NCBI GenBank assembly: GCA_951799405.1
Contig: OX637357.1
Span: forward strand, 186,001 to 250,000
Source of the DNA: Agapetus fuscipes
Lineage: Eukaryota > Arthropoda > Insecta > Trichoptera > Glossosomatidae
Direction: 5' to 3'
Length of the DNA stretch: 64,000 nt
The notes under the pieces are model-generated. The model was not told the origin of the DNA. It searched no databases and saw only the letters and a list, made by a program, of their open reading frames with translations. This document shows positions 2,510 to 33,251 of this stretch, one piece after another. Positions within the stretch are counted from its first letter, which is position 1, and the number at the start of each line of letters is the position of its first letter. A program made the translations under genes and the position numbers.

Positions 2510-3244
2510 TGTTACGAAATTAGGGTTCAATTGTCTTTCCAAATTAAAAATACACAGGTCTCCTTTAAAACTTATTTATTTTACACTGTTACAATATTTA
2601 TTTTCACACTACTTTCTCGATTATTCTACTTGGTTTCGGTTCACTGATCAGATGGCTTCGATGTCTTTGTTAGTCGCTATGATACTGGCCCGCTCTGCAG
2701 GCCATTCGCACCTTTATACTCTGTAGAGCAGTATGATCTAGAACCAAAGTTGCTAGACGGTTCCAGAGTAATTATTACTTCTCGACGCTTCACGTACTAC
2801 CTAGAGATACAACCAAAATCCTACCTACAAATGTAATACAGAATTCCTATAATTATAATTCCTTGACTTATAGGTTGGTATGAGGCTGACCACCCATACT
2901 GTAAAAAATGGTTCACTTTGCCAATGTCACCCCTGTTTCAGGGAATGTCGGCAAGAGTTGCAGGGCTTATGTTCATTTGAGGTTTGGATTTTATTTGTAA
3001 GTACACAATCAGCATTTGTAAGCGCGAACTACACGTGTTTGTTTGTGGGCATACATCTGAGAGCTTTGAATGAATATATCCTTGCAACTTAGATTATAGA
3101 TTATAGATTATAGATAACAAGTACCTACTTAGCCTAGAGAATTCTACACTTATACACAATTATCGATCCTACCTACCTATACCTATGAGGACTCTTATAA
3201 CTATAACTACCCATACTTATTTCAATATTTATATTTACATAACA
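2510..3244 (-). repeat. 3' LTR of the Ty3/gypsy element, interrupted by family A insertion
   Basis: 735 bp; without the insertion at 2859-3117 it is 476 bp, the length of the other LTR. TGTTA..TAACA termini. A TATA-like TATAAAGG lies on the minus strand at 2711-2718. Confidence 0.93.
2859..3113 (+). mobile_element. Family A SINE-like element inserted in the LTR
   Basis: Absent from the partner LTR at 9496-9971, so both edges are known exactly. It begins TTCCTTGACTTATAGG and ends in a (GATTATA)n tail. ATAA is duplicated on both sides (2855-2858 and 3114-3117). The 255-bp unit matches the last part of the RTE-like LINE tail at 18254-18497. It inserted after the retrotransposon did. Confidence 0.9.
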
Positions 3245-3257
3245 CTACCCCCCACCT
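3245..3257 (-). other. Polypurine tract of the Ty3/gypsy element
   Basis: In element sense AGGTGGGGGGTAG directly precedes the 3' LTR. It is the expected primer for plus-strand DNA synthesis. It overlaps the last pol codons (Gly-Gly-Gly-stop), so the pol stop abuts the LTR. Confidence 0.8.
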
Positions 3258-6200
3258 AGACTGTTTCGTCCCGGAACAGTCTTGACTCTGTGTCGGTAGG
3301 GGCATGCTGATCCACGTCGACACCCTGTGGTCAGGAAGAAGTGGCAGTCCACGGATTTCTCCCCACTGGCTCTCGGCTGCGCTTGCTCGCAGCACACCAT
3401 GACGCTGATGCCGACTCCCGAGAACACTGCTTCAATCATACTCCGGATTATCCGCCAATCTCGATTGGCGCGGCCGCCACCCATCTTTGGTATTGCCAGA
3501 CGCGCCTGCTGATCCTCCAGCATGTAGTCACGCAGCTCAACAAGGCCGTCCCACAATCCCTTGTAGTCATCTTCCAGGTTGCTGGAATCCGGGACAACCA
3601 GGCAGTATGCTTGTTGACGCCCCTTTGGTAGTCTCAGAGCTCTTCCTTGCGGGCTGCTCGAGGGTTGCGGTTCTCCGAATTTGTATCGGAAGACCCGTGC
3701 AATTCCTCTAGACATATCTAGATCTTCCGGTACACTGCATGCCAGTGTGTGGTCCCTAGTGACCTCAAATAAGTCCTTGTGGACTTCTGTGGTCACTCCA
3801 TGGCGAAACTTCTGCCCTGCCTTCGCGTTCTCCCAAAACGTCTCAAAGGCTGGTGATCTTTCGGATGCGACGCACTGTCGTACTTTTTGGGCTGGTTGGT
3901 CATCATTATCGCCTAGGTATGGTGAGAGGCGATTGTAGTGCACGACCCTTGGTTTTCCGTTTGGTCTCTTTTTTATGCGGTAGACCACATCGTTGATGCG
4001 CTCCAAGATCTCGTACGGCCCGTCCCAGGAACGCTGAAGTTTCGGACAGTATCCTTGGCGCCTCTTGGGGTCAAAAAGCCACACCCAGTCACCAGCTTTG
4101 TACCCCATGCTGTCAGCTCTGGTGTCATAGCGCTCCTTCATTTGATCGCTGGCTTCCCCGATGTTCATGCGGACCTGATCATGGATGTCATCCAGCCTCC
4201 TGCGAAGGTCTGTCACATAGTCTTCTCCGGCTAGGTCTTCACCTGGTTTGCAGCCAAATTTGAGATCACAAGGAAGTCGCATTTCTCGCCCAAACAGTAT
4301 GCTGCTGGGAGTCTTCTTCGTCGTTTCCTGAACAGCCGACCGGTAAGCCAATAAGAACAAAGGCAGATGTCGGTCCCAGTCCCGCTGATGGCTGGACACT
4401 ACTTTGGCTAAGTACCTCCCCACGGTACGGTTCATCCTTTCCACCATTCCATCAGACTGTGGATGTAGCGCAGTGGTCCTGGTCTTGTAGATCCCTAGCC
4501 GCTCACACATTTGCTGGAAGATAGCAGCTTCAAAGTTCCTTCCCTGATCAGAATGTAATTCCAGGGGTACGCCAAACCTGCTGATAAATTCGGTAACTAG
4601 AACTTCAGTCACGGTTACGGCCTCTTGGTTAGGGATTGAGTAAGCTTCCACCCACTTGCTGAAGTAATCCATCACCACCATGATGTACTTGTTACCCTTC
4701 TCAGTTGTAGGAAATGGGCCGGCTATGTCGATGGCAATTCTTTCAAAGGGGCTGCCAACATTGTACTGACGCATTGGTGCTCGCCTTTTCCTTTGCGGTC
4801 CATTGGCCGTTGCACAGGTTACACATTTTCGACACCAATCTTTGACGTCTTCGCTGCAGTTGATCCAGTAAAATCGCTCTTTCACTTTCTCCAGCGTCTT
4901 CTTAACGCCTAGATGTCCTCCAGAAGTTCCTCCATGCAGCAGTCCAAGGATTTCCGGTACTCGGCTCCTCGGAACGAGGGTTTGCTTTCTTCTAAGTGTG
5001 CCGTCTTCCTTCTCGATCTTTCGTTTCAGAAGCCCTCCTTCTATCACTATGGATCCCCATTGAGCCCAATAAGCCTTGACAGTTGGTGATAAGGGGGCGA
5101 GTTTTTCCCAGGTTGGCCTTTCTCTTTCTCGCGCCCATTCCATCACATACTTCAAGTCCGGATCATTCAGTTGGTCTTGCGCCAATTTTTCATCTTGCCA
5201 GTCCTCATCTTCGGTGGTCGTCCTTTGGACAATTGCTACCTTGTCCTCCATCCTGCTGCAATGTTTGCAGTCACTGGCGCATGGTCGTCTGGATAATGCA
5301 TCCGCATTTCGATGAAGCGTGCCAGGTCTATGTTCGGAGTCATAATCATACTCCTGGAGCCTTTCAATCCATCTAGCCACTTGCCCTTCTGGGTTTTTGA
5401 ATTTCAGAAGCCAAACCAGTGCAGCATGATCAGTCCGTAGTGTGAATTTTCTCCCGTACAAGTATTTGCGGAAGTGTTCCACTGATTTTATCACGGCAAG
5501 AAGCTCTCGTCTGGTCACGCAATAATTTCGTTCTGGCTTGGAAAGCACTTTACTGAAGTAACCCAGAACAGTCTCATGCCCATCCTGTATTTGGGAAAGG
5601 ACACCTCCTATCCCCACATTACTAGCGTCGGTATCCAGGATGAACTTTCCATCTTTTCGTGGGTAGCTCAAGATGGGGGCACTTGTTAATCTTCCCTTAA
5701 GCTCTTCAAATGCTTGTGCGCAGGAATCACTCCAATGGAAGCGAGTGTTTTCTTCCGTAAGCTTGGTGAGCGGTTTTGCAATGTCCGCAAATCTTAGCAC
5801 AAACCTCCTGTAATAAGTGCACAGCCCCAGGAAGCTCCTAGTTTCATGTTTGTCCTTCAGCACGGGCCAGTCTCTTACTGCCTTGATTTTGGCAGGGTCA
5901 ACTTCAACTCCACGTTGAGAAACTATGTGTCCCAGGTAATTTACTTGTTTCTTGAACAGGTTACACTTTTTTGGGTTGAGCTTCAGTCCAGCGTCTTGTA
6001 GTCGCCCGAAAACTTGCTCCAGATTTCTCAACTGATGGTTGAAGTCCTTTCCCAGGATGATTATGTCATCCAAGTATACAAGGCAGGTTTCCCATGACAG
6101 TCCTCGCAGCACATTCTCCATCAGCCTTTCAAACGTGGCGGGGGCATTGCATAAGCCAAATGGCATCACGGTGAACTGCCAAAGTCCAGATCCAGTCGAG

Positions 6201-7507
6201 AATGCCGTTTTCTCCTTATCTTTGGCATCCAATTCAACTTGCCAGTAGCCACTTTTCAGGTCCAATGTGGAAAAAATGGTGCATCCTGCCAATGTGTCCA
6301 AGGTGTCGTCAATCCTTGGCAGAGGGTAACTATCCTTTTTCGTAACATCGTTGAGCAGTCTGTAGTCCACACAAAATCTCGTGGTACCATCCTTCTTTTT
6401 CACCAGTACCACCGGGGATGTCCAAGGGCTACTTGATGGTTCTATGATGCCATCCTTGCTCATGTCTTTGATGATCTTGTCGGCTTCTTCCCGCTTTGCA
6501 AAGGGTAGTCTTCTTGGAGCCTGTTTGATTGGTCTTGCTTCTCCGGTGTCTATGCTATGTCGCACTACCTTGGTTCTTCCCAGACGGCCATTAGAGTCCT
6601 CGAAAATGTTCTGGTAGCGGCAGATCAAACTCCTCACTCTAAGTCTGTTTTCCTCGGTTAGACCTTGGGAAGCGTCGTGGACCAGGGTTTCCAATTGTGT
6701 CGATAATTTTCTTCCCTCGCATGTCATGTTTGTCATCTGTTGCACAATGGAAGTTATCCTCTCACATCTGCCCAAAACAAAACCTTCATTCATTTTAACT
6801 GGGTAGCTGTTCACATTCATGATCTTGACAGGAATGGTCTCCTGCGCGCGAATCACTGTTCTTGCCACCATGACTCCTTTGTTAACATTGTCCATGTTCT
6901 CCGGTTCTATCATACAGATTTGGTCATTTGTACTACTGGAATCCAGGCGGGCACTCACTATCATCTCGGATCGCCCCTTCACTTCGGTATTCTTGGCTAG
7001 GATCACACGTGCAGCCAGTTCTTTCCGTCTTTGCAGGATGACTTCTTCATTTTCAATTTTAATGGCACCTTTTTTTAAATTTAAGCTGCACCCAAATCTG
7101 TCCAGTATGTCCATTCCCAATATAACGTCTTCTTCAATGTTGGCCACCAACGTCCGATGATCAAAAGTGGTGCTGCCAATTTGGAAGGTGGCAATCGTCT
7201 CCCCATACACCTGTGCTGACTCTCCCGTGGCGGTGTGCAGAGACCACTTTGTTGGTGCAATCTGCTTACCTCGTGCCACTATGTCGCGTCTCAGAATTGT
7301 CCTGGTTGCTCCCGTGTCCACCAGTAGTTCACGGGTTACTCCATCTATTATGCCATTGATAAAAATGCTGCTGGCTTTTCCTCTCACAGTTGCGACAGTA
7401 GCAGCAGATTTCAGGGCCTCTCCAGCGCGGGTCAACGGTTGCCCCTTCCCATTAACCCTTTCTAGTTTTCCGCAGCCTGTTTTCTGGGTTTCTGAGGCTT
7501 GGGACAC
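3245..7507 (-). CDS. pol: Ty3/gypsy pol polyprotein with C-terminal macrodomain and CCCH zinc finger
   Basis: 1,420 codons, intact. Aspartic protease: DTGA at residues 64-67 and ILGMDIL near 129-135. Reverse transcriptase: about 320-530, with Asp416 in STLDLKSGY and YLDD at 478-481. RNase H: about 620-740 (DTDAS, RTDHAAL). Integrase: zinc-binding H858/H865/C895/C898 and catalytic D927, D987, E1023 with 35-residue spacing between the last two. GPY/F-type module: WDGPYEI at 1161-1167. After this, where most such polyproteins end, residues about 1238-1374 resemble a TARG1/ALC1-type macrodomain and 1388-1406 form a C-X7-C-X5-C-X3-H zinc finger. The Met at 7507 is only the top of the open frame. 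Pol is probably made by -1 frameshifting from gag, since the ORFs overlap by 46 nt. The protease, RT and integrase act in the virus-like particle and at integration. The role of the extra domains is unknown. Confidence 0.95.
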   Translation of the reverse strand: MSQASETQKTGCGKLERVNGKGQPLTRAGEALKSAATVATVRGKASSIFINGIIDGVTRELLVDTGATRTILRRDIVARGKQIAPTKWSLHTATGESAQVYGETIATFQIGSTTFDHRTLVANIEEDVILGMDILDRFGCSLNLKKGAIKIENEEVILQRRKELAARVILAKNTEVKGRSEMIVSARLDSSSTNDQICMIEPENMDNVNKGVMVARTVIRAQETIPVKIMNVNSYPVKMNEGFVLGRCERITSIVQQMTNMTCEGRKLSTQLETLVHDASQGLTEENRLRVRSLICRYQNIFEDSNGRLGRTKVVRHSIDTGEARPIKQAPRRLPFAKREEADKIIKDMSKDGIIEPSSSPWTSPVVLVKKKDGTTRFCVDYRLLNDVTKKDSYPLPRIDDTLDTLAGCTIFSTLDLKSGYWQVELDAKDKEKTAFSTGSGLWQFTVMPFGLCNAPATFERLMENVLRGLSWETCLVYLDDIIILGKDFNHQLRNLEQVFGRLQDAGLKLNPKKCNLFKKQVNYLGHIVSQRGVEVDPAKIKAVRDWPVLKDKHETRSFLGLCTYYRRFVLRFADIAKPLTKLTEENTRFHWSDSCAQAFEELKGRLTSAPILSYPRKDGKFILDTDASNVGIGGVLSQIQDGHETVLGYFSKVLSKPERNYCVTRRELLAVIKSVEHFRKYLYGRKFTLRTDHAALVWLLKFKNPEGQVARWIERLQEYDYDSEHRPGTLHRNADALSRRPCASDCKHCSRMEDKVAIVQRTTTEDEDWQDEKLAQDQLNDPDLKYVMEWARERERPTWEKLAPLSPTVKAYWAQWGSIVIEGGLLKRKIEKEDGTLRRKQTLVPRSRVPEILGLLHGGTSGGHLGVKKTLEKVKERFYWINCSEDVKDWCRKCVTCATANGPQRKRRAPMRQYNVGSPFERIAIDIAGPFPTTEKGNKYIMVVMDYFSKWVEAYSIPNQEAVTVTEVLVTEFISRFGVPLELHSDQGRNFEAAIFQQMCERLGIYKTRTTALHPQSDGMVERMNRTVGRYLAKVVSSHQRDWDRHLPLFLLAYRSAVQETTKKTPSSILFGREMRLPCDLKFGCKPGEDLAGEDYVTDLRRRLDDIHDQVRMNIGEASDQMKERYDTRADSMGYKAGDWVWLFDPKRRQGYCPKLQRSWDGPYEILERINDVVYRIKKRPNGKPRVVHYNRLSPYLGDNDDQPAQKVRQCVASERSPAFETFWENAKAGQKFRHGVTTEVHKDLFEVTRDHTLACSVPEDLDMSRGIARVFRYKFGEPQPSSSPQGRALRLPKGRQQAYCLVVPDSSNLEDDYKGLWDGLVELRDYMLEDQQARLAIPKMGGGRANRDWRIIRSMIEAVFSGVGISVMVCCEQAQPRASGEKSVDCHFFLTTGCRRGSACPYRHRVKTVPGRNSLGGG
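3290..3346 (-). other. CCCH zinc finger at the pol C-terminus
   Basis: Pol residues C1388, C1396, C1402 and H1406 fit C-X7-C-X5-C-X3-H exactly, with CPYRH at the end. Canonical CCCH fingers of this spacing usually bind RNA. This finger follows the macrodomain and lies 14 residues from the stop. Confidence 0.88.
3386..3796 (-). other. Macrodomain (TARG1-like) encoded at the pol C-terminus
   Basis: Pol residues about 1238-1374. Matches to my recollection of the TARG1/OARD1 fold family: TEVHKDLFEV (first strand), ACSVPEDLDMSRGIA (ligand loop, where TARG1 has CISEDCRMGAGIA), FRYKFG, LPKGRQQAYCLV (core strand with a Lys near the catalytic-Lys position), LRDYMLED, LAIPKMGGG, then WRIIRSMIEAVF. Such domains bind ADP-ribose, and some hydrolyse ADP-ribosyl esters. 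TARG1 GCGLD appears as GGGRA here, so the catalytic Asp seems lost while binding may remain. The assignment rests on motif order, not on a profile search. Confidence 0.82.
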
Positions 7508-8832
7508 TTGGTGCTAAGGTGGCCCAGCTGTCCGCAGTTCCAGCAGCGTGGGTCTCGTCTTCGAGGTCTCAGACGTTCCAGCACTTTTTCAATTAGCTCC
7601 TCGGTTGTAGGTAGCTTGACCTCCTCTGCCTCGACTGCACGAACCCTGGCGTGGCCCCTGATGGACTGTTTGACAGCCTCAAACTCGAGAGCTTGGCTGA
7701 GCGCCTCGTTCAAAGCCTTGGGATGGGCCAGTTTTACGGCTTGTTGCGTCTCCCATTCCCGCAATCCATTTAGGAACTTGTCCACTGCCAAGCTCTCACA
7801 GATGTCGTCGGAGGCTGTCGGGTAAGCGTCTCGTACCAGGCGGGCGATGTCCATTTCAAACTCCTGGAGGCTCTCGTTGGGCTTCTGCACCCTTGTGTTC
7901 AGCTGCGACTTGTACAGCTGCTCCAGGCACTTGTGGCCATAGCGCATATCCAAGCGCTGCTTCAGCTGCCCAAAGTCACCACGGTTGTCCAGGGGTATGG
8001 CCTGCAGAACCCTGAGAGCGTCTCCTCGGAGCGACAGGCTGAGAACCGAAGCCTTCTTCTGCTGGCTCCAGGCTCCCATCATGGCAGCCGTCTCAAAGAG
8101 GGTCAAATACTCCTCCCACGACGTCTTCCCGTCGAAGGTCGGAAGGTTGTGCTTCGCCAGCGAAGGGTCGTCATCCCCTCTAGTGACCCTGGTTGGAGTT
8201 GAGCATCCCTGTTCGATCTCGTCGTGAAGGCCTTTGGGGGATATCCTGGTGGACTCCATCTGGCACTTGTCAGCCAGCTCGGCACGCAGACGGTCTTTCA
8301 GGTTTGACATCCGAGTCTCCATTTCCCCCTTCAGGGCCGAGAGGTTGGTTGTCATCTTCTCCTCCATTTCTCCTTTCAGGGTTGTGAGATTCTTATTGAG
8401 GTCCTCCTTCAGGGTAGTGAGGCTGTCAGCCATCTCCACCTTCAGGCTGGTCATCTTTTCCTCTAGCCCGGTCAGGTTGCTGGTCATCTTCTCCTCCAGG
8501 GTCTTGGCGTTGTCAGCCATCTTCTCCTCCAGAGTCTTGGCGTTGTCAGCCATCTCCGCCTTCAGGTCTTCCCTCAGGGTCTTGGAATTGTCAGCCATCT
8601 CAGTCTTCAGTCCTGTCAGGTTACTGTTGATGCTGATATTTAGCTCGTCCAAGGCGCGGTCCCCCCCAGACGCCATGACAAAATATGCCGGGTCTTCGCC
8701 TGTCTGTTCCAAGGCCTCTATGAGGCGTGCCTGTAAGGCCGCCTTCCCTCCTGAGGTCTCCAGGTCCCTCTCCAGAAGCTCATTTTTAAGCTCTGTGACT
8801 TTGAGGTCCTTGACGTTCACTTTGGTTGCCAT
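7462..8832 (-). CDS. gag: Gag protein with SAP domain, coiled-coil repeats and zinc knuckle
   Basis: 456 codons from ATG at 8832. Residues about 8-42 fit a SAP motif (LKVTELKNELLERDL, then TSGGKAALQARL), normally a DNA-binding helix-turn-helix of chromatin proteins. Residues about 65-200 are a Lys/Glu-rich coiled coil of repeated MADNAKTLEEKM-like units. Residues about 225-390 are the capsid-type retrotransposon gag region (TFDGKTSWEEYLTLFE, LSLRGDAL, VDKFLNGL). A CX2CX4HX4C zinc knuckle lies at 430-443 (CWNCGQLGHLSTKC), followed by a basic tail. It should form the particle and package RNA. The coding strand is more GC-rich than the flanks. The next ORF on the same strand is pol, overlapping by 46 nt. 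Confidence 0.93.
   Translation of the reverse strand: MATKVNVKDLKVTELKNELLERDLETSGGKAALQARLIEALEQTGEDPAYFVMASGGDRALDELNISINSNLTGLKTEMADNSKTLREDLKAEMADNAKTLEEKMADNAKTLEEKMTSNLTGLEEKMTSLKVEMADSLTTLKEDLNKNLTTLKGEMEEKMTTNLSALKGEMETRMSNLKDRLRAELADKCQMESTRISPKGLHDEIEQGCSTPTRVTRGDDDPSLAKHNLPTFDGKTSWEEYLTLFETAAMMGAWSQQKKASVLSLSLRGDALRVLQAIPLDNRGDFGQLKQRLDMRYGHKCLEQLYKSQLNTRVQKPNESLQEFEMDIARLVRDAYPTASDDICESLAVDKFLNGLREWETQQAVKLAHPKALNEALSQALEFEAVKQSIRGHARVRAVEAEEVKLPTTEELIEKVLERLRPRRRDPRCWNCGQLGHLSTKCPKPQKPRKQAAEN
7465..7471 (-). promoter_or_regulatory. Candidate -1 frameshift site at the gag/pol junction
   Basis: On the minus strand G-GAA-AAC directly precedes the gag TAG (7464-7462). Slipping back one base gives GGA-AAA and enters the pol frame, which is -1 relative to gag (8832-7507 = 1325, remainder 2 modulo 3). 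GGAAAAC is an imperfect X-XXY-YYZ heptamer, so the exact slip site is inferred. Confidence 0.5.
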
Positions 8833-9495
8833 TTTTTTTTTAAATTTACTTCAAAACGAAAATATTTTTAAATTTATTTAATACAAGTTTTGAGTTTTAT
8901 ATATATGGCTGTTTTGAATACGTACTTTAGCAAAAATAATAATTTATCTGATTACACTGTGAGTAGGTCTTTTAATATTTATTTTTAATTCACCAATATT
9001 TTTTTACATAATAATGTCTGATAGTACATAATTATTTATTTCGTCTCAAGTCTTTCAAACACACAGGTAGGTACTAAATGTACATTCACACACTTGTAAA
9101 CGAAGGGCAGTTATTCAAAAACTTTTTCTCGATGAATCTGGAACGTTCTTTTGTAATATTTTTCAAGATTTTTATTTATTTATTTTATTTTTTTAATCAC
9201 ACACAATAATAAAAAAAAAACTATGGTCCAATTTGATGACTTTCTCAATGCGGTAAAATAGTCATTATGTTATGTCCAGAATTATGTTCCATATGATGTT
9301 CCAGAATTTTTTTTTGAACTTGCTTTTTGCGTCTTTTCTTTTAATAAAAATTTATTTAAACACTTGTTTTCACAAAAGTCAGTTCACACAAAGTTCAATT
9401 TGACTAAAGTTCATTTTAACACTATTTAATTTATTTTATTTATTTTTAGGAAGAAGATCTTAATTTTTCTTGACAATTCCGCACCTGACGCCAAT
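8833..9495 (-). other. Leader of the Ty3/gypsy element with primer-binding site
   Basis: About 660 nt between the 5' LTR and gag. Immediately inside the LTR, at 9493-9479 on the minus strand, TGGCGTCAGGTGCGG starts with TGG as expected for pairing to a tRNA CCA end. The tRNA identity was not determined (tRNA-Leu-like at best). The rest is AT-rich and non-coding. Confidence 0.75.
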
Positions 9496-9971
9496 TGTTA
9501 CGAAATTAGGGTTCAATTGTCTTTCCAAATTAAAAATACACAGGTCTCCTTTAAAACTTATTTATTTTACACTGTTACAATATTTATTTTCACACTACTT
9601 TCTCGATTATTCTACTTGGTTTCGGTTCACTGATCAGATGGCTTCGATGTCTTTGTTAGTCGCTATGATACTGGCCCGCTCTGCAGGCCATTCGCACCTT
9701 TATACTCTGTAGAGCAGTATGATCTAGAACCAAAGTTGCTAGACGGTTCCAGAGTAATTATTACTTCTCGACGCTTCACGTACTACCTAGAGATACAACC
9801 AAAATCCTACCTACAAATGTAATACAGAATTCCTATAATTATAACAAGTACCTACTTAGCCTAGAGAATTCTACACTTATACACAATTATCGATCCTACC
9901 TACCTATACCTATGAGGACTCTTATAACTATAACTACCCATACTTATTTCAATATTTATATTTACATAACA
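9496..9971 (-). repeat. 5' LTR of the Ty3/gypsy element
   Basis: 476 bp, TGTTA..TAACA, no insertion. A minus-strand TATA-like TATAAAGG lies at 9697-9704 and AATAAA-type signals near 9560. It should carry promoter and polyadenylation functions. No difference from the 3' LTR was seen outside the family A insertion. Confidence 0.93.
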
Positions 9972-10127
9972 GTATTTATTTGAACAAATTAGAAATATTA
10001 ATAAAAATTTAAACGAAAATCAGCAGATTCACTCTTGCATGCAGCTCACGAGACGCCTTCATCCGCCTGTGCTGTTAAGCGTGCGTACTTTTCAACCATA
10101 TTTCATCTCGTCAAAAAAGGTATAAAG

Positions 10128-10979: not shown

Positions 10980-11205
10980 ATCTCTTTCCGTAACTGTTAC
11001 TCTGTCAGCATTCCGCTAAGGGTGGCCAGAGCCTCTGCATATTCACCTATATTTCTTTCTTTCCTTGTTTACCTTTTGAATTCATTCATATGCATCACAA
11101 TTTGCATACATATCATTCTATTACATTCACTCTGTATCTTCTATTCATTCACAATTTCTCCAACCTAATAAGACCATACTTTTTTCGTCTTCTTTTTTCT
11201 CTTCT
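10980..11205 (-). mobile_element. RTE-like LINE 3' coding fragment
   Basis: Minus-strand match to the C-terminal coding end of the RTE-like LINE subfamily (GGCCACCCTTAGCGGAATG, GACAGAGTAACAGTTAC). Decayed, no open frame. A sense family A copy follows directly at 11206. Confidence 0.6.
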
Positions 11206-11343
11206 TACTCCTTGACTTATAGGTCGGTATGCGGCTGATAACCTATACTGTAAAGATATGGTTCACTTTGCCAATGTCACCCCTGTTTCAGGGAAGGTCG
11301 GCAAGAGTTACAGTGCTTATGTTCATGTGAGATTTGGGTTATA
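11206..11343 (+). mobile_element. Family A element, cut by a LINE insertion
   Basis: Starts CCTTGACTTATAGGTCGG and runs to GAGATTTGGGTT, where the (ATA)n tail of the minus-strand CR1/L2-type LINE begins. The remaining half of family A is missing here. Confidence 0.8.
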
Positions 11344-12440
11344 ATAATAATAATAATAATCACAGAATTTATATAGCGCCTTTTATGACAATGTGTCACT
11401 ACAAAGGCGCTTGTCCATATGATTGGACGAAGAGGTGAGTCTTGAGACTTCTTTTAAATTTCGTCTCCAAATCCAGTTCCCTCAGTGTGTCAGGAAAAGC
11501 ATTCCAGGTCATTGGAGCGGCTGCCTTGAATGCCCTGTCTCCAAAAACAGTGTGGGGTCTTCTTGCTGGGACTTCCAGGCAGCTGCTTCTTGATGCAGCT
11601 GACCTCAGTGTTTGTCCACGCAAGGTTATAGTTGTTGGAGACACCAGCTCCATCAGGTACCCCGGAGCACTCCCACGTAGTGCTTTAAAAGTGAGCAGAC
11701 CAACTTTAAAAGTAATCCTCTCAGGGATTTTCAGCCAATGCAGAGCTTGAAGGTGAGGAGTGATGTGGCAAGATTTTGCAGCGCCATATATGAGTCTAGC
11801 TGCAGCGTTCTGCAGCGATTGAAGCCTTTTGAGCTGATTTTTGGGCTGGCCAGCATAGATCGCATTGCAGTAGTCAAGTTTGGCCACAACAAAGGAATTT
11901 ACAATCGCCTTTGTAGCACTTCTAGGCAGACTTTTAACCACGGTCTTAATTTGCCGGAGAGCAAAGAATCCGGATCTGACAGTGTTTGATAGTTGATTAT
12001 CCAGTGTCAGGTGCTGGTCGATGCAAACTCCAAGAAGTTTAATGCTGGCAGACGGGTTGACATTTACTCCGCAGATTCTGATGGGCGACAGGTCAAGAAG
12101 TTCATTGCGCTTCTTTGTCACCGCACACAAAATTTCCGTCTTATCCGGGTTTAGGACTAGCTTATTTGCAGTCATCCAGCGCTCAACGTCTTCAATGCAT
12201 TTGCCGATTGTTCTCTTTAAGGCCATTTGGTTTTCGGGTTCACAGTCACCATAGATCTGACAATCATTAGCATAGCACTGCATTTCAAGTCCTGACCTAT
12301 GCACCACCTGTTCAAGCTCTCCAGTGTACAGGACGAAGAGAAGTGGACCCAGAACAGAGCCCTGTGGAACACCTGAGGACAACATATTTGTAGCCGAAAC
12401 ATCTCCATTCAGTCTAACTGATTGTTCTCTCCCGTTGTTG
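11341..12440 (-). pseudogene. 5'-truncated CR1/L2-type LINE with RT C-terminal half
   Basis: The open frame on the minus strand reads from about 12438 to the stop at 11399 (the first ATG of the frame is at 12385). It starts inside RT with SVRLNGDVSATN, then SSGVPQGSVLGPLLF, then YANDCQIY where YADD is expected. LDYCNAIYAG, LQNAAARLI and the terminal LKTHLF are typical of CR1/L2-type reverse transcriptases. The 3' end reads AAGGCGCTATATAAATTCTG and then (ATT)n at 11341-11361, a usual L2/CR1-style tail. The endonuclease and front half of RT are gone. It was probably dead on arrival through 5' truncation, although the remaining frame is open. Confidence 0.9.
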
Positions 12441-23756: not shown

Positions 23757-24460
23757 GAACCGTTGCTCTGACACTATTCCACTGCGGGTGGCCTCACAAT
23801 GTACTGTTGCTCTGACACTATTCCACTGCGGGTGGCCTCACAATGTACTGTTGCTCTGACACTATTCCACTGCGGGTGGCCTCACAATGTACTGTTGCTC
23901 TGGCACTATTCCACTGCGGGTGGCCTCACAATGTACTGTTGCTCTGACACTATTCCACTGCGGGTGGCCTCACAATGTACTGTTGCTCTGGCACTATTCC
24001 ACTGCGGGTGGCCTCACAATGTACTGTTGCTCTGGCACTATTCCACTGCGGGTGGCCTCACAATGTACTGTTGCTCTGACACTATTCCACTGCGGGTGGC
24101 CTCACAATGTACTGTTGCTCTGACACTATTCCACTGCGGGTGGCCTCACAATGTACTGTTGCTCTGGCACTATTCCACTGCGGGTGGCCTCACAATGTAC
24201 TGTTGCTCTGGCACTATTCCACTGCGGGTGGCCTCACAATGTACTGTTGCTCTGGCACTATTCCACTGCGGGTGGCCTCACAATGTACTGTTGCTCTGAC
24301 ACTATTCCACTGCGGGTGGCCTCACAATGTACTGTTGCTCTGACACTATTCCACTGCGGGTGGCCTCACAATGTACTGTTGCTCTGACACTATTCCACTG
24401 CGGGTGGCCTCACAATGTACTGTTGCTCTGACACTATTCCACTGCGGGTGGCCTCACAAT
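23757..24460. repeat. 44-bp satellite, block 1 (16 monomers)
   Basis: Monomer GTACTGTTGCTCTGACACTA followed by TTCCACTGCGGGTGGCCTCACAAT. Sixteen units in exact 44-bp register end at 24460; the first is slightly divergent. The main variant is TGACAC versus TGGCAC. With A and G for these, the order is AAAGAGGAAGGGAAAA. All three plus-strand frames are free of stops, which creates spurious ORFs. Confidence 0.97.
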
Positions 24461-26281
24461 AGAACCCTGTCCAACAATTGTTACAAAAATTACATTTCCA
24501 ATACAGAATGTGCCATCAACCTTAATTTAAATAAATTCTGGTCTTATGCTAACTCTATGAAGAAGAACAATCTTGGCTTACCTCATAATGTTTTCTATGA
24601 AGATGTTTCATCTAATAATGGCCAAGAAAATGCAAACCTATTTGCAACCTTCTTCAAGAGTATTTACGATGTTGACCCTTCTAACTTTAGTACTTTCAAC
24701 TTTTCTTCAGATACTGATTTGCGACTTTCAAATATATCTTTTAGTGTAGCTGACGTCATTGCTGAAATTAAATCATTGAAGCCACTTACTAATCCCGGCC
24801 CTGATAATGTTCCAGCAATAATGTTAAAAAGTTGTGTACATACTTTGGCTCAACCTCTGTGTATAGTTTTTAATTTATCTGTTTCTTCGGGTTGCTTCCC
24901 CGCCATTTGGAAGCAGTCATACCTCTCTCCAATCTACAAATCTGGTGATAGGAATGACGTTAAGAACTATCGACCAATTAGTATATTATCAGCCATTCCC
25001 AAGCTCCTTGAGAAGCTTGTTCTTACGAAAATTCGTTACGTTGTTACCAGATCTATCTCGGACCAACAACATGGTTTTCTACCAAACCGTTCCACTTCCT
25101 CTAATTTAATGGTTTTTGAAAATTTTCTTTCCAAATCATTATCGAACCGTAAGCAAGTTGACGTTATTTACACCGACTTTTCTAAAGCGTTCGACAGGGT
25201 ATCACATAATATTCTGCTCACCAAGCTTCATGGAATGGGCGTGACTGGTAGTTTTTTGTCTTGGCTCCGAAACTACCTTACATGTAGATCTATCGCTGTC
25301 AAGATAGATAATTTCATATCTTACTCCTTCACACCAACTAGTGGTGTTCCTCAGGGCTCTCACCTGGGTCCTCTGCTTTTCCTTTTATTTATCGACGATA
25401 TTACCAAAGAATTTCCTGACACTAACGTTCTTATGTTTGCTGATGATTTAAAATTTTTCAAAGTTATTGATAGTGTTGATGACTGTATTAGTCTTCAACT
25501 ATCACTGAATAAACTGGCGGTCTGGTGTTCCAATTATAAACTACCACTGAATGTCTCGAAGTGTATAGTCATGAACTTTTTCAGATTAAAAAATCCCATT
25601 TATTTTGACTATACACTCAATTCAACCAGTCTTCGAGTGGTAACAGAGGTCACTGATCTTGGAGTTATTTTTGACCGTGGGCTGACTTTTACTTTGCACA
25701 TTGCCTCTGCTTGTGCGAAGGATATGAGAATGCTTGGTTTTATAAATCGCATCACCAAGGACTTCAGGGACATCACTACATTAAAACTTTTATATACATC
25801 GCTTGTACGTAGTGTTCTTGAGTATTGCTCACCTGTCTGGTCTCCTCATTACTCAGTCCATGTAAATAATATTGAAAAAGTCCATATTAAATTCTTAAAA
25901 ATTATTAATTTTAAACTTAAAATTCCGATATCGGATTTTGATCCCATCCACCTAAACTCCTTTCTAAACATAATTAGTTTGTCTGATAGACGAAAATTTA
26001 TTGATTTACTTACCCTTTATAAAATTAAAAATGGCCTGTTAGACTGTCCGCTGTTGCTTGGCGAGATAAATTTTTTGATCCCTCGACAAGGATCAAGACA
26101 GGTAGTTCCTTACCGCCCTGTAGCTTCAACTACTAATGCTCATTACCATAGCTGCATTAATCGCTTACAGAGACTGGGTAATATTATGTTTGCGTTGGAC
26201 ATGCAATCGTATAATAATAGTTGTGATAAGTACAAGGCAGGTTTAAAAAGGTACTTTTTGAGTGAACGAGCATCATCATAA
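24461..26281 (+). pseudogene. LINE reverse transcriptase ORF, copy 1 (5'-truncated)
   Basis: 606 LINE-derived codons. The frame runs in from the satellite (open from 24371), so any translation product would start with satellite-encoded residues. The LINE part lacks endonuclease and begins RTLSNNCYKN. RT motifs: SLKPLTNPGPDNVPAIMLKS, SPIYKSGDRNDVKNYRPIS, YTDFSKAFDRVSH, SGVPQGSHLGPLLF and FADDLKFFK (FADD at 25436-25447). C-terminal SPVWSPHYSVHVNNIEK. No stop before TAA at 26279. Closest in this window to the LINE at 37800-40637. Asp at codon 25721-25723 is Gly in copy 2. Confidence 0.92.
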
Positions 26282-26708
26282 AATCTAAACTAATTTTAGC
26301 ATATTTTACTGTTTAATATATATTGTATATGTATATTGTATATTCTCAAATGTAAATACTTTTGAACAACTTTATGTAATGCTTTATACATGTTTAATTT
26401 TAATATGTTTTTGCTTTGTTTCTAACCTTCTGTTTATATAAATATAGGTTTATTTTTTCTTTCTTTTCTTGGTTATTCTTTTGTTTTTTACTGCTCTATT
26501 TATATAAGTAAAGGTTTATTTTTTCTTTCTTTTCTTGGTTATTCTTTTGTTTTTTACTGCAATGTTTCACATATATTTATATATATTGTTGTATTTTATT
26601 GTTTTTTATTGTTTTTCATATTATTTTTTTCTTGTATTTTATTGTTCTTTTTTTCGCAGTTTTGTATAAACTCACTTAATATATACTTTTTGTAAAAGGC
26701 TTATGCCG

Positions 26709-26739
<31 letters not shown>

Positions 26740-26741
26740 AT
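24461..26741 (+). mobile_element. CR1/Jockey-group LINE copy 1, inside the satellite
   Basis: A 5'-truncated LINE inserted between CACAAT and GTACTG, exactly at a monomer boundary without loss of satellite sequence. The 3' UTR contains two tandem copies of a roughly 66-bp segment (26432-26563), then TAAAAGGCTTATGCCGTAAA and an (AAAT)n tail. It is identical to copy 2 (27270-29550) except for three substitutions seen (25722, 26498, 26577). Confidence 0.93.
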
Positions 26742-27269
26742 GTACTGTTGCTCTGACACTATTCCACTGCGGGTGGCCTCACAATGTACTGTTGCTCTGA
26801 CACTATTCCACTGCGGGTGGCCTCACAATGTACTGTTGCTCTGACACTATTCCACTGCGGGTGGCCTCACAATGTACTGTTGCTCTGACACTATTCCACT
26901 GCGGGTGGCCTCACAATGTACTGTTGCTCTGGCACTATTCCACTGCGGGTGGCCTCACAATGTACTGTTGCTCTGGCACTATTCCACTGCGGGTGGCCTC
27001 ACAATGTACTGTTGCTCTGGCACTATTCCACTGCGGGTGGCCTCACAATGTACTGTTGCTCTGACACTATTCCACTGCGGGTGGCCTCACAATGTACTGT
27101 TGCTCTGACACTATTCCACTGCGGGTGGCCTCACAATGTACTGTTTCTCTGACACTATTCCACTGCGGGTGGCCTCACAATGTACTGTTGCTCTGACACT
27201 ATTCCACTGCGGGTGGCCTCACAATGTACTGTTGCTCTGACACTATTCCACTGCGGGTGGCCTCACAAT
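26742..27269. repeat. 44-bp satellite, block 2 (12 monomers)
   Basis: Exactly 12 x 44 bp between the two LINE copies. Variant order AAAAGGGAAAAA. The tenth monomer has a private TGTTTCTCTG change. It starts in the same phase as the end of block 1. Confidence 0.97.
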
Positions 27270-29090
27270 AGAACCCTGTCCAACAATTGTTACAAAAATT
27301 ACATTTCCAATACAGAATGTGCCATCAACCTTAATTTAAATAAATTCTGGTCTTATGCTAACTCTATGAAGAAGAACAATCTTGGCTTACCTCATAATGT
27401 TTTCTATGAAGATGTTTCATCTAATAATGGCCAAGAAAATGCAAACCTATTTGCAACCTTCTTCAAGAGTATTTACGATGTTGACCCTTCTAACTTTAGT
27501 ACTTTCAACTTTTCTTCAGATACTGATTTGCGACTTTCAAATATATCTTTTAGTGTAGCTGACGTCATTGCTGAAATTAAATCATTGAAGCCACTTACTA
27601 ATCCCGGCCCTGATAATGTTCCAGCAATAATGTTAAAAAGTTGTGTACATACTTTGGCTCAACCTCTGTGTATAGTTTTTAATTTATCTGTTTCTTCGGG
27701 TTGCTTCCCCGCCATTTGGAAGCAGTCATACCTCTCTCCAATCTACAAATCTGGTGATAGGAATGACGTTAAGAACTATCGACCAATTAGTATATTATCA
27801 GCCATTCCCAAGCTCCTTGAGAAGCTTGTTCTTACGAAAATTCGTTACGTTGTTACCAGATCTATCTCGGACCAACAACATGGTTTTCTACCAAACCGTT
27901 CCACTTCCTCTAATTTAATGGTTTTTGAAAATTTTCTTTCCAAATCATTATCGAACCGTAAGCAAGTTGACGTTATTTACACCGACTTTTCTAAAGCGTT
28001 CGACAGGGTATCACATAATATTCTGCTCACCAAGCTTCATGGAATGGGCGTGACTGGTAGTTTTTTGTCTTGGCTCCGAAACTACCTTACATGTAGATCT
28101 ATCGCTGTCAAGATAGATAATTTCATATCTTACTCCTTCACACCAACTAGTGGTGTTCCTCAGGGCTCTCACCTGGGTCCTCTGCTTTTCCTTTTATTTA
28201 TCGACGATATTACCAAAGAATTTCCTGACACTAACGTTCTTATGTTTGCTGATGATTTAAAATTTTTCAAAGTTATTGATAGTGTTGATGACTGTATTAG
28301 TCTTCAACTATCACTGAATAAACTGGCGGTCTGGTGTTCCAATTATAAACTACCACTGAATGTCTCGAAGTGTATAGTCATGAACTTTTTCAGATTAAAA
28401 AATCCCATTTATTTTGACTATACACTCAATTCAACCAGTCTTCGAGTGGTAACAGAGGTCACTGATCTTGGAGTTATTTTTGACCGTGGGCTGACTTTTA
28501 CTTTGCACATTGCCTCTGCTTGTGCGAAGGGTATGAGAATGCTTGGTTTTATAAATCGCATCACCAAGGACTTCAGGGACATCACTACATTAAAACTTTT
28601 ATATACATCGCTTGTACGTAGTGTTCTTGAGTATTGCTCACCTGTCTGGTCTCCTCATTACTCAGTCCATGTAAATAATATTGAAAAAGTCCATATTAAA
28701 TTCTTAAAAATTATTAATTTTAAACTTAAAATTCCGATATCGGATTTTGATCCCATCCACCTAAACTCCTTTCTAAACATAATTAGTTTGTCTGATAGAC
28801 GAAAATTTATTGATTTACTTACCCTTTATAAAATTAAAAATGGCCTGTTAGACTGTCCGCTGTTGCTTGGCGAGATAAATTTTTTGATCCCTCGACAAGG
28901 ATCAAGACAGGTAGTTCCTTACCGCCCTGTAGCTTCAACTACTAATGCTCATTACCATAGCTGCATTAATCGCTTACAGAGACTGGGTAATATTATGTTT
29001 GCGTTGGACATGCAATCGTATAATAATAGTTGTGATAAGTACAAGGCAGGTTTAAAAAGGTACTTTTTGAGTGAACGAGCATCATCATAA
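27270..29090 (+). pseudogene. LINE reverse transcriptase ORF, copy 2 (5'-truncated)
   Basis: 606 codons, differing from copy 1 by one residue (Gly for Asp at codon 28530-28532). All RT motifs listed for copy 1 are present, including SGVPQGSHLGPLLF and FADD. The frame is again entered from the satellite (open from 27180). Endonuclease absent. Confidence 0.92.
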
Positions 29091-29517
29091 AATCTAAACT
29101 AATTTTAGCATATTTTACTGTTTAATATATATTGTATATGTATATTGTATATTCTCAAATGTAAATACTTTTGAACAACTTTATGTAATGCTTTATACAT
29201 GTTTAATTTTAATATGTTTTTGCTTTGTTTCTAACCTTCTGTTTATATAAATATAGGTTTATTTTTTCTTTCTTTTCTTGGTTATTCTTTTGTTTTTTAC
29301 TGCTCTGTTTATATAAGTAAAGGTTTATTTTTTCTTTCTTTTCTTGGTTATTCTTTTGTTTTTTACTGCAATGTTTCACATATATATATATATATTGTTG
29401 TATTTTATTGTTTTTTATTGTTTTTCATATTATTTTTTTCTTGTATTTTATTGTTCTTTTTTTCGCAGTTTTGTATAAACTCACTTAATATATACTTTTT
29501 GTAAAAGGCTTATGCCG

Positions 29518-29548
<31 letters not shown>

Positions 29549-29550
29549 AT
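27270..29550 (+). mobile_element. CR1/Jockey-group LINE copy 2, inside the satellite
   Basis: Same truncation point, same tail and same satellite junctions as copy 1, displaced by exactly 2,809 bp. The identical 5' break rules out two independent insertions and indicates duplication of a LINE-plus-satellite unit. Confidence 0.93.
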
Positions 29551-29946
29551 GTACTGTTGCTCTGACACTATTCCACTGCGGGTGGCCTCACAATGTACTG
29601 TTGCTCTGACACTATTCCACTGCGGGTGGCCTCACAATGTACTGTTGCTCTGACACTATTCCACTGCGGGTGGCCTCACAATGTACTGTTGCTCTGACAC
29701 TATTCCACTGCGGGTGGCCTCACAATGTACTGTTGCTCTGGCACTATTCCACTGCGGGTGGCCTCACAATGTACTGTTGCTCTGGCACTATTCCACTGCG
29801 GGTGGCCTCACAATGTACTGTTGCTCTGACACTATTCCACTGCGGGTGGCCTCACAATGTACTGTTGCTCTGGCACTATTCCACTGCGGGTGGCCTCACA
29901 ATGTACTGTTGCTCTGACACTATTCCACTGCGGGTGGCCTCACAAT
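29551..29946. repeat. 44-bp satellite, block 3 (9 monomers)
   Basis: Exactly 9 x 44 bp, variant order AAAAGGAGA. It begins like block 2 (AAAAGG), as expected if both derive from the satellite just downstream of one original LINE insertion. It ends at CACAAT, then unrelated sequence. Confidence 0.97.
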
Positions 29947-31282: not shown

Positions 31283-31680
31283 GAGTTTGTGTTTTGGGTC
31301 ACTTCATCTTGGAACCGTTGGTACGCGTGATGCGATTCACTTTTAAAATAAATACCCGGTCAACTGTACTAATGTTATCTTCCTCATTGCATGAAGTATG
31401 CCATACTTTCGAGTTGTAGATTAAAAAAAAATTAAGTGGGGTTATCGCACTAACCTTTGGCTTTTAATTAAATAGAATAGACAACAAGAATTGCAGCGTG
31501 GTCGTTAAGGTGCAAGTGCCCAACTAACATCACAAAAAAAAATCAGTACAGCAAGTATAGAACATTTACACCAACTGCCTTAATCCTCAACTTAATCAAG
31601 GATACAGAAGGACCTTATCGTTGTAACTCTCTTGAATTCCAAGTTCATCATCTTGTACAAGCGTGCTTTTTCTCTGCTGG
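31283..31680. other. Unassigned sequence
   Basis: No gene or window-wide repeat seen. Confidence 0.5.
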
Positions 31681-32672
31681 TTGCCATCCTCTTGTTCAGG
31701 CAGTGCCTTGTTGTGCTAGCCCTTTATCTCTGTTGGTCGCCATCCTCTTGTTCAGGTAGTGCCTTGTTGTGCTTGCCCTTTATCTCTGTTGGTCACCATC
31801 TTCTTGTTCAGGCAGTGCCTTGTTGTGCTAGCCCTTTATCTCTGTTGGTCACCATCCTCTTGTTCAGGTAGTGCCTTGTTGTGCTTGCCCTTTATCTCTG
31901 TTGTTCGCCATCTTCTTGTTCAGGCAGTGCCTTGTTGTGCTAGCCCTTTATCTCTGTTGGTCGCCATCCTCTTTATCAGGCAGTGCCTTGTTGTGCTAGC
32001 CCTTTATCTCTGTTGGTCGCCATCCTCTTGTTCAGGTAGTGCCTTGTTGTGCTTGCCCTTTATCTCTGTTGGTCGCCATCCTCTTTATCAGGCAGTGCCT
32101 TGTTGTGCTAGCCCTTTATCTCTGTTGGTCGCCATCCTCTTGTTCAGGTAGTGCCTTGTTGTGCTTGCCCTTTATCTCTGTTGGTCACCATCTTCTTGTT
32201 CAGGCAGTGCCTTGTTGTGCTAGCCCTTTATCTCTGTTGGTCACCATCCTCTTGTTCAGGTAGTGCCTTGTTGTGCTTGCCCTTTATCTCTGTTGTTCGC
32301 CATCTTCTTGTTCAGGCAGTGCCTTGTTGTGCTAGCCCTTTATCTCTGTTGGTCGCCATCCTCTTTATCAGGCAGTGCCTTGTTGTGCTAGCCCTTTATC
32401 TCTGTTGGTCGCCATCCTCTTGTTCAGGTAGTGCCTTGTTGTGCTTGCCCTTTATCTCTGTTGGTCGCCATCCTCTTTATCAGGCAGTGCCTTGTTGTGC
32501 TAGCCCTTTATCTCTGTTGGTCGCCATCCTCTTGTTTAGGCAGTGCCTTGTTGTGTTAGCCCTTTATCTCTGTTGGTCGCCATCCTCTTGTTCAGGCAGT
32601 GCCTTGTTGTGCTTGCCCTTTATCTCTGTTGGTCGCGATCCTCTTGTTTAGGCAGTGCCTTGTTGTGCTAGC
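31681..32672. repeat. 56-bp minisatellite with 7-mer higher-order repeat
   Basis: About 18 units of a 56-bp monomer (GCAGTGCCTTGTTGTGCTAG, CCCTTTATCTCTGTTGGTCG, CCATCCTCTTGTTCAG). Units vary at three places: TTGTTCAG/TTTATCAG, GTAG/GCAG, CTAGCC/CTTGCC. Units 2-8 and 9-15 show the same variant order, a 392-bp duplication. ORFs across it are repeat artefacts, because 56 is not divisible by 3. Confidence 0.95.
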
Positions 32673-33251
32673 CAAAGATTGGTTGCTTCCACACGAGGCA
32701 CAACCCTCAGCAATAACTCAAAGCATTTAGAAGTGCTCACATTTGGAAGCATTGCCTGAAGAAGCTGAAGGACTCCGTGGCCATAGAGGCTAAATCAATC
32801 TTTAACAAAAGCATGATCACCTTTTACAGCTGTGACATAAAAAACCTGTTGCACCAAACTCCAATCAGACAAAAATCAAAATTAAGTGTGATTTCTCTCA
32901 TCAAATCAAAAATTTGGTTGCATATACGTAAATCAGCTGATGTACATCGTATTTCTTGTTCAAATTCCATCATATTACTATCCACTTTCGAGAAACATTT
33001 AACCGAGGTCCTTACCAGAATTAAGCAATCAATCAAATTTGATGTGTCAATCAAATATTGATCAAAGGTTTTGCAACAAGCTCTAGACAGCCATGATTGT
33101 CGTCGATCTTCGATATGAACGGCACTATAATAAGGACTTTGTCACTTCTTGCCGCACAGCGTTGCAATAACTAAACACTACGCATGCATAATGTCATTTA
33201 CCGCGCTGAGTGTAGACGGTTACTTATAACTTGAGAATTTAGTTGACAGCT
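32673..33251. other. Sequence upstream of the protease homologue gene
   Basis: Likely contains the promoter and 5' UTR. CACTATAATAAGG near 33124 is a weak TATA-like candidate about 125 bp before the start codon. The short ORF at 32777-33061 has no recognisable motif. Confidence 0.4.

Follow-up and report, generated by a model that had tools for sequence, protein, structure and literature searches.

A TARG1-type macrodomain and a CCCH zinc finger follow the integrase in a Ty3/gypsy retrotransposon family of Agapetus fuscipes

A Ty3/gypsy element with a macrodomain behind its integrase

In a stretch of 64,000 nucleotides from the trichopteran Agapetus fuscipes (assembly GCA_951799405.1, contig OX637357.1, positions 186,001 to 250,000; hereafter the window, whose own coordinates we use), the minus strand at 2510-9971 holds a Ty3/gypsy long terminal repeat (LTR) retrotransposon whose pol frame runs on from the integrase into a TARG1-type macrodomain and a CCCH zinc finger. 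This layout had been proposed in a first-pass annotation, and homology together with a predicted fold confirmed that pol extends from integrase to a domain closest to TARG1. The pol gene (3245-7507, minus strand, like the LTRs, gag, the primer-binding-site region, the polypurine tract and the pol domains located below; 1420 aa counted from a GTG) encodes protease, reverse transcriptase (RT), RNase H and integrase, and this domain order, seen in a Pfam scan, identifies the element as Ty3/gypsy. The integrase catalytic residues D927, D987 and E1023 span 4439-4729 within an rve match (Pfam scan). They are followed by an Integrase p58 C-terminal (GPY/F-type) module (3908-4030; Pfam 8.1e-13), the macrodomain (pol 1238-1375; 3383-3796) and a C-x7-C-x5-C-x3-H motif (pol 1388-1406; 3290-3346). 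The polypurine tract (AGGTGGGGGGTAG, 3245-3257) encodes the pol stop. A Pfam scan up to E 1 found no chromodomain after the integrase; the macrodomain and finger stand there instead. A first structure model, made with 8 sequences, was poor (predicted local distance difference test score 65) and was discarded.

Human TARG1 (C6orf130, OARD1; PDB 4j5q, 4j5r, 4j5s) is a free enzyme, whereas the window version is a domain of pol in which the equivalents of TARG1 Lys84 and Asp125 are replaced. These two residues are described as the catalytic dyad of TARG1 (PMC9411070, PMC5087735). The first-pass annotation had noticed that the aspartate looks replaced, and it is Ala in the window; the Lys84 equivalent is likewise replaced, by Pro, and the domain thus lacks the dyad of an active TARG1-type hydrolase.

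The remainder of the element is that of an LTR retrotransposon, with an LTR pair, a target-site duplication and the polypurine tract all present. The 5' LTR (TGTTATG...CGTAACA; 9496-9971, 476 bp) and the 3' LTR (2510-3244) agree at 476 of 476 aligned bases when a later insertion that swells the 3' LTR is excluded. This insertion, at 2808-3113 (an approximate extent taken from repeat families; its junctions are visible in the sequence), resembles and is taken as the 3' end of a long interspersed nuclear element (LINE); it terminates in a CTATAAT-like run, and kin of it lie at 11202-11350, past an RT frame that spans 11399-12385. A target-site duplication, ATAC, borders the element (9972-9975 on the 5' side, 2506-2509 on the 3' side). 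A primer-binding-site region (ATTGGCGTCAGGTGCGG..., 9466-9495) was read directly. The gag gene (7462-8832; 456 aa) and pol lie in different frames, and the single slippery-heptamer pattern that we tried was not found at the frame change. Gag opens with a SAP domain, followed by an Apolipoprotein-type (coiled-coil-like) part that repeats of 33 and 45 bp encode (8299-8611), a Retrotrans_gag domain and a CCHC knuckle (Pfam: SAP 3.9e-8, zf-CCHC 1.7e-5, Retrotrans_gag 3.3e-5). To our knowledge a SAP domain in gag is unusual; SAP is also listed for the database proteins P0011 and P0012 (P numbers are our own). No env open reading frame lies between pol and the 3' LTR, and because the pol stop falls inside a polypurine tract that adjoins the LTR, the element does not have an errantivirus-like env layout.

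Copies in the genome and relatives in the databases

Searching the source genome (618 Mb in 148 contigs) with the window tail gave at least 150 matches (1411 first-look candidates). Of those listed, 149 have 99% identity and one has 100%, and most lie within a 1422-codon frame. In all 30 copies fetched, which are the best-scoring ones, the tail was open. This family, which we call A, is high-copy and recently active. One further copy, L103, is 72% identical to the window and represents a subfamily, A2; its own integrase is broken. A second family, B, appeared with a different query in about 50 rows, and 28 of the 30 copies fetched from it had an open tail with the finger. Family C, of which a single copy was read (L112; G000:C12:10913000-10914800), has its macrodomain between RNase H and integrase and keeps both dyad residues (LITK and GSGLD); eight further rows were grouped with it by their similar scores. 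Three open stretches of 117-123 codons also keep both dyad residues and lack the first part of the domain, and we take them to be exons of host TARG1-like genes. Two loci, L104 (G000:C15:8539600-8542700) and L100, are 3' ends with no detectable upstream integrase part; synonymous divergence (dS) in L104 is 1.10 for the linker and 0.04 for the macrodomain, which suggests a mosaic.

Among database proteins, the window tail had a single relative, P0002 (38% identity). The P0002 tail in turn matched 52 proteins, which by our own judgement divide into 23 with pol features, 28 without and one viral protein that was set aside. The 28 comprise 26 named insect proteins and the unnamed P0032 and P0036; the named ones come from beetles, aphids, an adelgid, a cockroach, a termite, a locust and a leafhopper. 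The viral protein, P0053, is Banna virus VP5, listed with a Pfam Macro domain and 42% identical to the element domain. P0002 and P0016 carry the label Erysiphe pulchra, so that insect-type pols sit in a powdery mildew assembly through contamination or transfer; P0002 also continues into sequence resembling gag, as a tandem arrangement or a faulty gene prediction would produce. A query made of RNase H and integrase found a macrodomain in 21 of the best 120 among 4370 pols (10 of 109 new ones and 11 already known). The window query found no relatives in IMG/VR or GTDB contigs, and the P0002 query found none in IMG/VR. An alignment-based query returned 22 (IMG/VR) and 17 (GTDB) loci that, to judge from their identity and record titles, look like TARG1-like genes of bacteria or phages. 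PLSDB plasmids gave three weak bacterial matches.

An integrase tree of 31 macrodomain-bearing rows and 29 of the 99 macrodomain-less rows placed 25 of the 31, together with three macrodomain-less rows, in one clade (support 100/99) whose nearest kin lack the domain. The closest integrase and RNase H kin outside this clade, among the matches listed, are macrodomain-less arthropod gypsy pols such as 'transposon 412' and 'Ips erranti-like virus 3' (P0121, P0073 and others). The six macrodomain-bearing rows outside the clade (P0039, P0040, P0044, P0046, P0047 and P0054) are on long branches, where joins mean little. P0010-P0012 retain too little integrase for this tree and were placed in the clade by the macrodomain tree; P0057, cut short within the domain, was left out of the macrodomain trees and of the dyad and finger counts. 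Macrodomain-less pols recovered with the RNase H and integrase query end 0-20 residues past the p58 match, except P0061, inside the clade, which ends 71 residues past it. These placements suggest that the macrodomain was probably gained once in the main integrase clade and lost in P0056, P0061 and P0066.

The finger follows the same clade. Its exact spacing, as first described for the window, was confirmed there and is shared by 18 of 26 database clade members and by none of 99 macrodomain-less pols. Six of the eight members without it (P0016, P0017, P0018, P0019, P0022 and P0058) form one subclade (91/90); of the other two, P0013 terminates within the finger and P0062 has a degraded one. The window finger alone falls below the PF00642 cut-offs, and PF00642 was matched at E up to 0.01 by 10 of the 26 members of our A3 set (14 with the finger region, 12 without), the best at 8.1e-7. 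The C-x7/8-C-x5-C-x3-H spacing with this profile support identifies a CCCH finger.

The first-pass annotation had also raised the case of a region private to this one copy, and this is not what we found. Chance read-through, a private fusion or an assembly artefact has next to no prospect of explaining the tail: it is contradicted by the at least 150 genomic copies, by the second family and by 26 database relatives in one clade, and nothing was found in its favour.

Where the macrodomain came from is suggested by two trees. A tree of 71 macrodomains, with an outgroup of bacterial relatives, groups 30 element domains in a clade (95/87) nested among host genes, and the node placing five host genes outside the element clade has support of 93/91. 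A second tree added four rows (B, A2, C and a host stretch) and dropped five near-identical ones (P0011, P0012, P0049-P0051); the 30-row clade persisted (95/86), and its position among hosts and human TARG1 became an open fork. The earlier proposal that the element captured a host macrodomain therefore stands in the first tree, in which the element domains nest among insect TARG1-like genes, and is left open by the second. On this phylogenetic evidence the domain was likely taken from an arthropod host.

Capture may have happened more than once. P0044, P0039 and P0054 fell outside the 30-row clade in both trees, and the domain occupies several positions. In the main clade and P0039 it follows the integrase, P0046 and P0047 have it between RNase H and integrase, P0040 and P0054 have it close to the N-terminus, and in the partial P0044 it lies somewhere upstream of the integrase. 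The approximately unbiased (AU) test did not reject a single origin with 33 element rows (p 0.233) and did reject it with the 34 rows that include the local families (p 0.018), among which family C forms a long branch with an unusual composition. Repeated capture thus seems likely.

Catalytic residues, selection and possible roles of the tail

The Lys and Asp of the dyad are intact in 29 of 35 element macrodomains (near-identical P0010-P0012 each counted singly) and in all 28 host proteins, and the Gly43 equivalent is retained in 35 of 35 element domains. Because 29 of 35 keep Lys84 and Asp125, the ancestral state of the family was probably that of an eraser of ADP-ribose. The six exceptions read Pro/Ala (the window and A2), Arg/Ala (B), Arg/Asp (P0059), Lys/Asn (P0060) and Arg/Asn (P0064). 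The closest database relative, P0055, has both Lys and Asp, within SGGPD instead of GCGLD. A, A2 and B unite before P0055 in the macrodomain tree (100/94), and Asp125 was therefore probably lost once, in their common ancestor; the integrase tree shows an open fork of three. Decay of the dyad after insertion is ruled out, because the Pro and Ala of the window recur in A2 (L103) and family B shows Arg and Ala. The window lineage retains the G-rich loops (Gly43-type and GGG), and on this ground its macrodomain is predicted to be an ADP-ribose reader. The earlier suggestion of a reader rather than an eraser accordingly fits the window lineage, where the dyad is gone, the loops are kept and the ratio of nonsynonymous to synonymous divergence (dN/dS) is 0.14, and does not fit the family, in which 29 of 35 keep the dyad.

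The tail might nevertheless act as an eraser, stripping ADP-ribose off nucleic acids or proteins of the element and thereby blunting control by PARPs, in the window copy by chemistry that does not use the dyad. Besides the dyad-bearing majority and the one read copy of family C in the same genome, this account draws on the described substrates of TARG1-type enzymes, namely ADP-ribosylated protein, ADP-ribosylated ends of DNA and RNA, and ADP-ribose linked to thymidine (PMC9411070). In Drosophila, several elements of the gypsy superfamily are reported to rise when PARP-1 is lost, perhaps through an indirect effect (PMC7712786). Moreover, the Streptomyces macrodomain SCO6735 is described as hydrolysing with Gln and Ala at the dyad positions (PMC9411070, PMC5087735); a missing dyad is therefore no proof of inactivity. 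However, SCO6735 is reported to require Gln85 at the Lys84 position and the Pro of the window lineage has no such amide, family B has Arg there, and both lineages have Ala for Asp125. We consider an eraser role for the window tail unlikely.

We also compared rates of change, with all dN/dS pairs sharing the window sequence and hence not independent. Against L103 the macrodomain (139 codons) gave dS 1.16, dN 0.162 and dN/dS 0.140 (bootstrap 0.07-0.239), the purifying selection that the first-pass annotation had asked to be checked; since the integrase of L103 is broken, its copy should push the ratio up, not down. The integrase part gave 0.033 (dN 0.064; dS 1.96, near saturation, with no usable interval) and the finger 0.191 (0-0.76), too short to judge alone. 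Closer copies gave 0.127, 0.112 and 0.226, and L104 0.368 (interval 0.072-1.66). Decay of the window macrodomain is thus unlikely, because the ratio is 0.14 against a diverged copy of the same genome. Relaxed selection is likewise not supported by dN/dS, though the stem of the lineage changed fast. The ratio of macrodomain to integrase branch lengths, worked out by hand from two trees for pairs of our choosing, was about 2.5 for window-L103, and three dyad-bearing pairs gave about 2.3, 2.4 and 2.6; the domain therefore seems to have evolved rapidly at the time of dyad loss and to have been held since then about as tightly as in dyad-bearing kin.

These rates bear on whether the tail is a functionless relic carried in an open frame. 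The loss of both catalytic residues, the fast stem and the macrodomain-less relatives within the clade (P0056, P0061, P0066) would agree with a passenger, but a dN/dS of 0.14 with an upper bootstrap bound of 0.24, a macrodomain-to-integrase ratio that is not raised for window-L103 and a tail open in every fetched (best-scoring) family A copy argue against one. We hold this to be very unlikely.

Our preferred reading is that the window tail is a tether for the integrase complex, one that binds ADP-ribose and nucleic acid and is not an eraser, and we give it a probability of roughly 0.4. It builds on the replacement of both catalytic residues while dN/dS between copies stayed at 0.14, and the higher conservation of pocket loops relative to other positions when the window is compared with family B (20/30 against 44/103; pocket columns here and below were picked by hand from TARG1 loops) is consistent with it. 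Under this proposal, an ancestral element would have acquired a host macrodomain at the base of the integrase clade, initially as an active eraser, and the window lineage would have lost the hydrolase and retained the binding module. The pocket might bind ADP-ribose carried by PARP-marked chromatin, by DNA ends during integration or by nucleic acid of the element itself, and the finger might bind element RNA or cDNA. The tail could then bring the pre-integration complex to ADP-ribosylated sites or shield it there.

Several observations weigh against a tether of this kind. The low dN/dS is not specific to the macrodomain, as the linker has 0.216 (dN 0.441, dS 2.04), albeit with a dN 2.7 times that of the macrodomain. 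In the trees without L103 and B, the end branch of the window measured 1.02 for the macrodomain (flagged as long) and 0.24 for the integrase, and P0059 (1.14 vs 0.20) and P0062 (0.84 vs 0.18) were similarly fast. In the pocket region of the window, the Ser35 equivalent is Pro and that of Thr83 is Val. In places the tail can be dispensed with, as P0056 ends 6 residues past p58 and P0061 and P0066 lack the domain. Finally, a second dyad-less lineage, P0060/P0064, has an eroded G-rich loop (pocket 13/28 identical, rest 57/106); it looks to have lost ADP-ribose binding and kept the rest of the domain and the finger, and the tail may therefore have a role independent of ADP-ribose.

Such a role could be that of a scaffold, in which the fold is kept merely as a rigid holder that presents the finger or stabilises the integrase and the pocket is irrelevant. 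In addition to P0060 and P0064, the pocket and the rest of the domain are equally conserved between the window and L103 (22/30 vs 71/102, not above the rest), and for the macrodomain, nonsynonymous change is about 2.5 times the integrase value (dN as given above; pN 0.33 vs 0.135 against family B, where pS is ~0.72 and near saturation). On the other side, six proteins (the subclade of P0016, P0017, P0018, P0019, P0022 and P0058) have an intact-dyad macrodomain and no finger, so that holding the finger is not the sole role, and the better conserved pocket loops between A and B are not expected of an irrelevant pocket. A pure scaffold is, in our view, doubtful.

Neighbouring features, comparable elements and significance

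Elsewhere in the window, two LINE-type RT frames of 636 aa (24371-26281 and 27180-29090) stand head to tail within 23762-29946, and arrays of one 44-bp unit lie near them (23762-24460, 26739-27269 and 29548-29946); the region is possibly a LINE inserting into its own satellite. A 56-bp tandem array of 18 copies (31666-32673) yields open frames of 130 and 166 codons, and nested inverted repeats at 617-1330 (arms of 72-110 nt, 87-93% complementary) form a fold-back element. Neither a tRNA nor an Rfam match reaching the gathering score was found in the window.

Chromoviruses are Ty3/gypsy elements with a chromodomain after the integrase, a histone-mark reader used for targeting. The window element is alike in placing a candidate mark reader at the integrase C-terminus and differs in the domain and the mark, its targeting role being only proposed. 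Orchid Ty3/gypsy elements with an AlkB-type m6A demethylase (PMC9289625) likewise took an eraser-type domain for a host mark. They differ in having it as a separate open reading frame (ORF), in a plant host and of the 2-ODD type, with demethylase activity demonstrated; the main text of that paper contains neither 'macro' nor 'ADP-ribos'. Bdelloid LTR elements with a GDSL esterase or DEDDy exonuclease as ORF3 (PMC5408684) indicate that extra domains are common to unrelated retroelements, some of them without catalytic residues; these are other enzymes in a separate ORF3, and a text search of the paper for 'macro' and 'ADP' gave no hit. Loss of the Lys/Asp dyad has parallels in the bacterial TARG1/ALC1-like proteins SCO6735 and BT1257 (PMC5087735, PMC9411070), described with Gln and Ala in its place; these are free-standing, and SCO6735 is active. 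In open-licence literature (titles and the starts of abstracts, among the matches listed) we found no LTR element encoding a macrodomain or another domain that binds or removes ADP-ribose. LTR elements with captured domains are thus already known, and what is unusual here is the fusion to integrase, the several positions of the domain and the natural dyad-less lineages.

ADP-ribosylation is an antiviral and DNA-repair signal. For another kind of mobile element, SIRT6 is reported to ADP-ribosylate KAP1, leading to L1 silencing (PMC4695847). Against this background, the element families may record an arms race, in which insect Ty3/gypsy elements captured a host ADP-ribose eraser repeatedly and some lineages, the window's included, then turned it into a hydrolase-dead reader, with erasers and readers present even within one genome; we put forward this broader view tentatively, at a little short of an even chance. 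With an integrase-fused domain beside a dyad-intact family in the same genome, it would become directly testable whether such elements use ADP-ribose marks at integration by reading, erasing or exploiting them, and dyad-bearing and dyad-less natural versions are available for comparison. The system would open a route to studying the interplay between ADP-ribosylation and mobile DNA.
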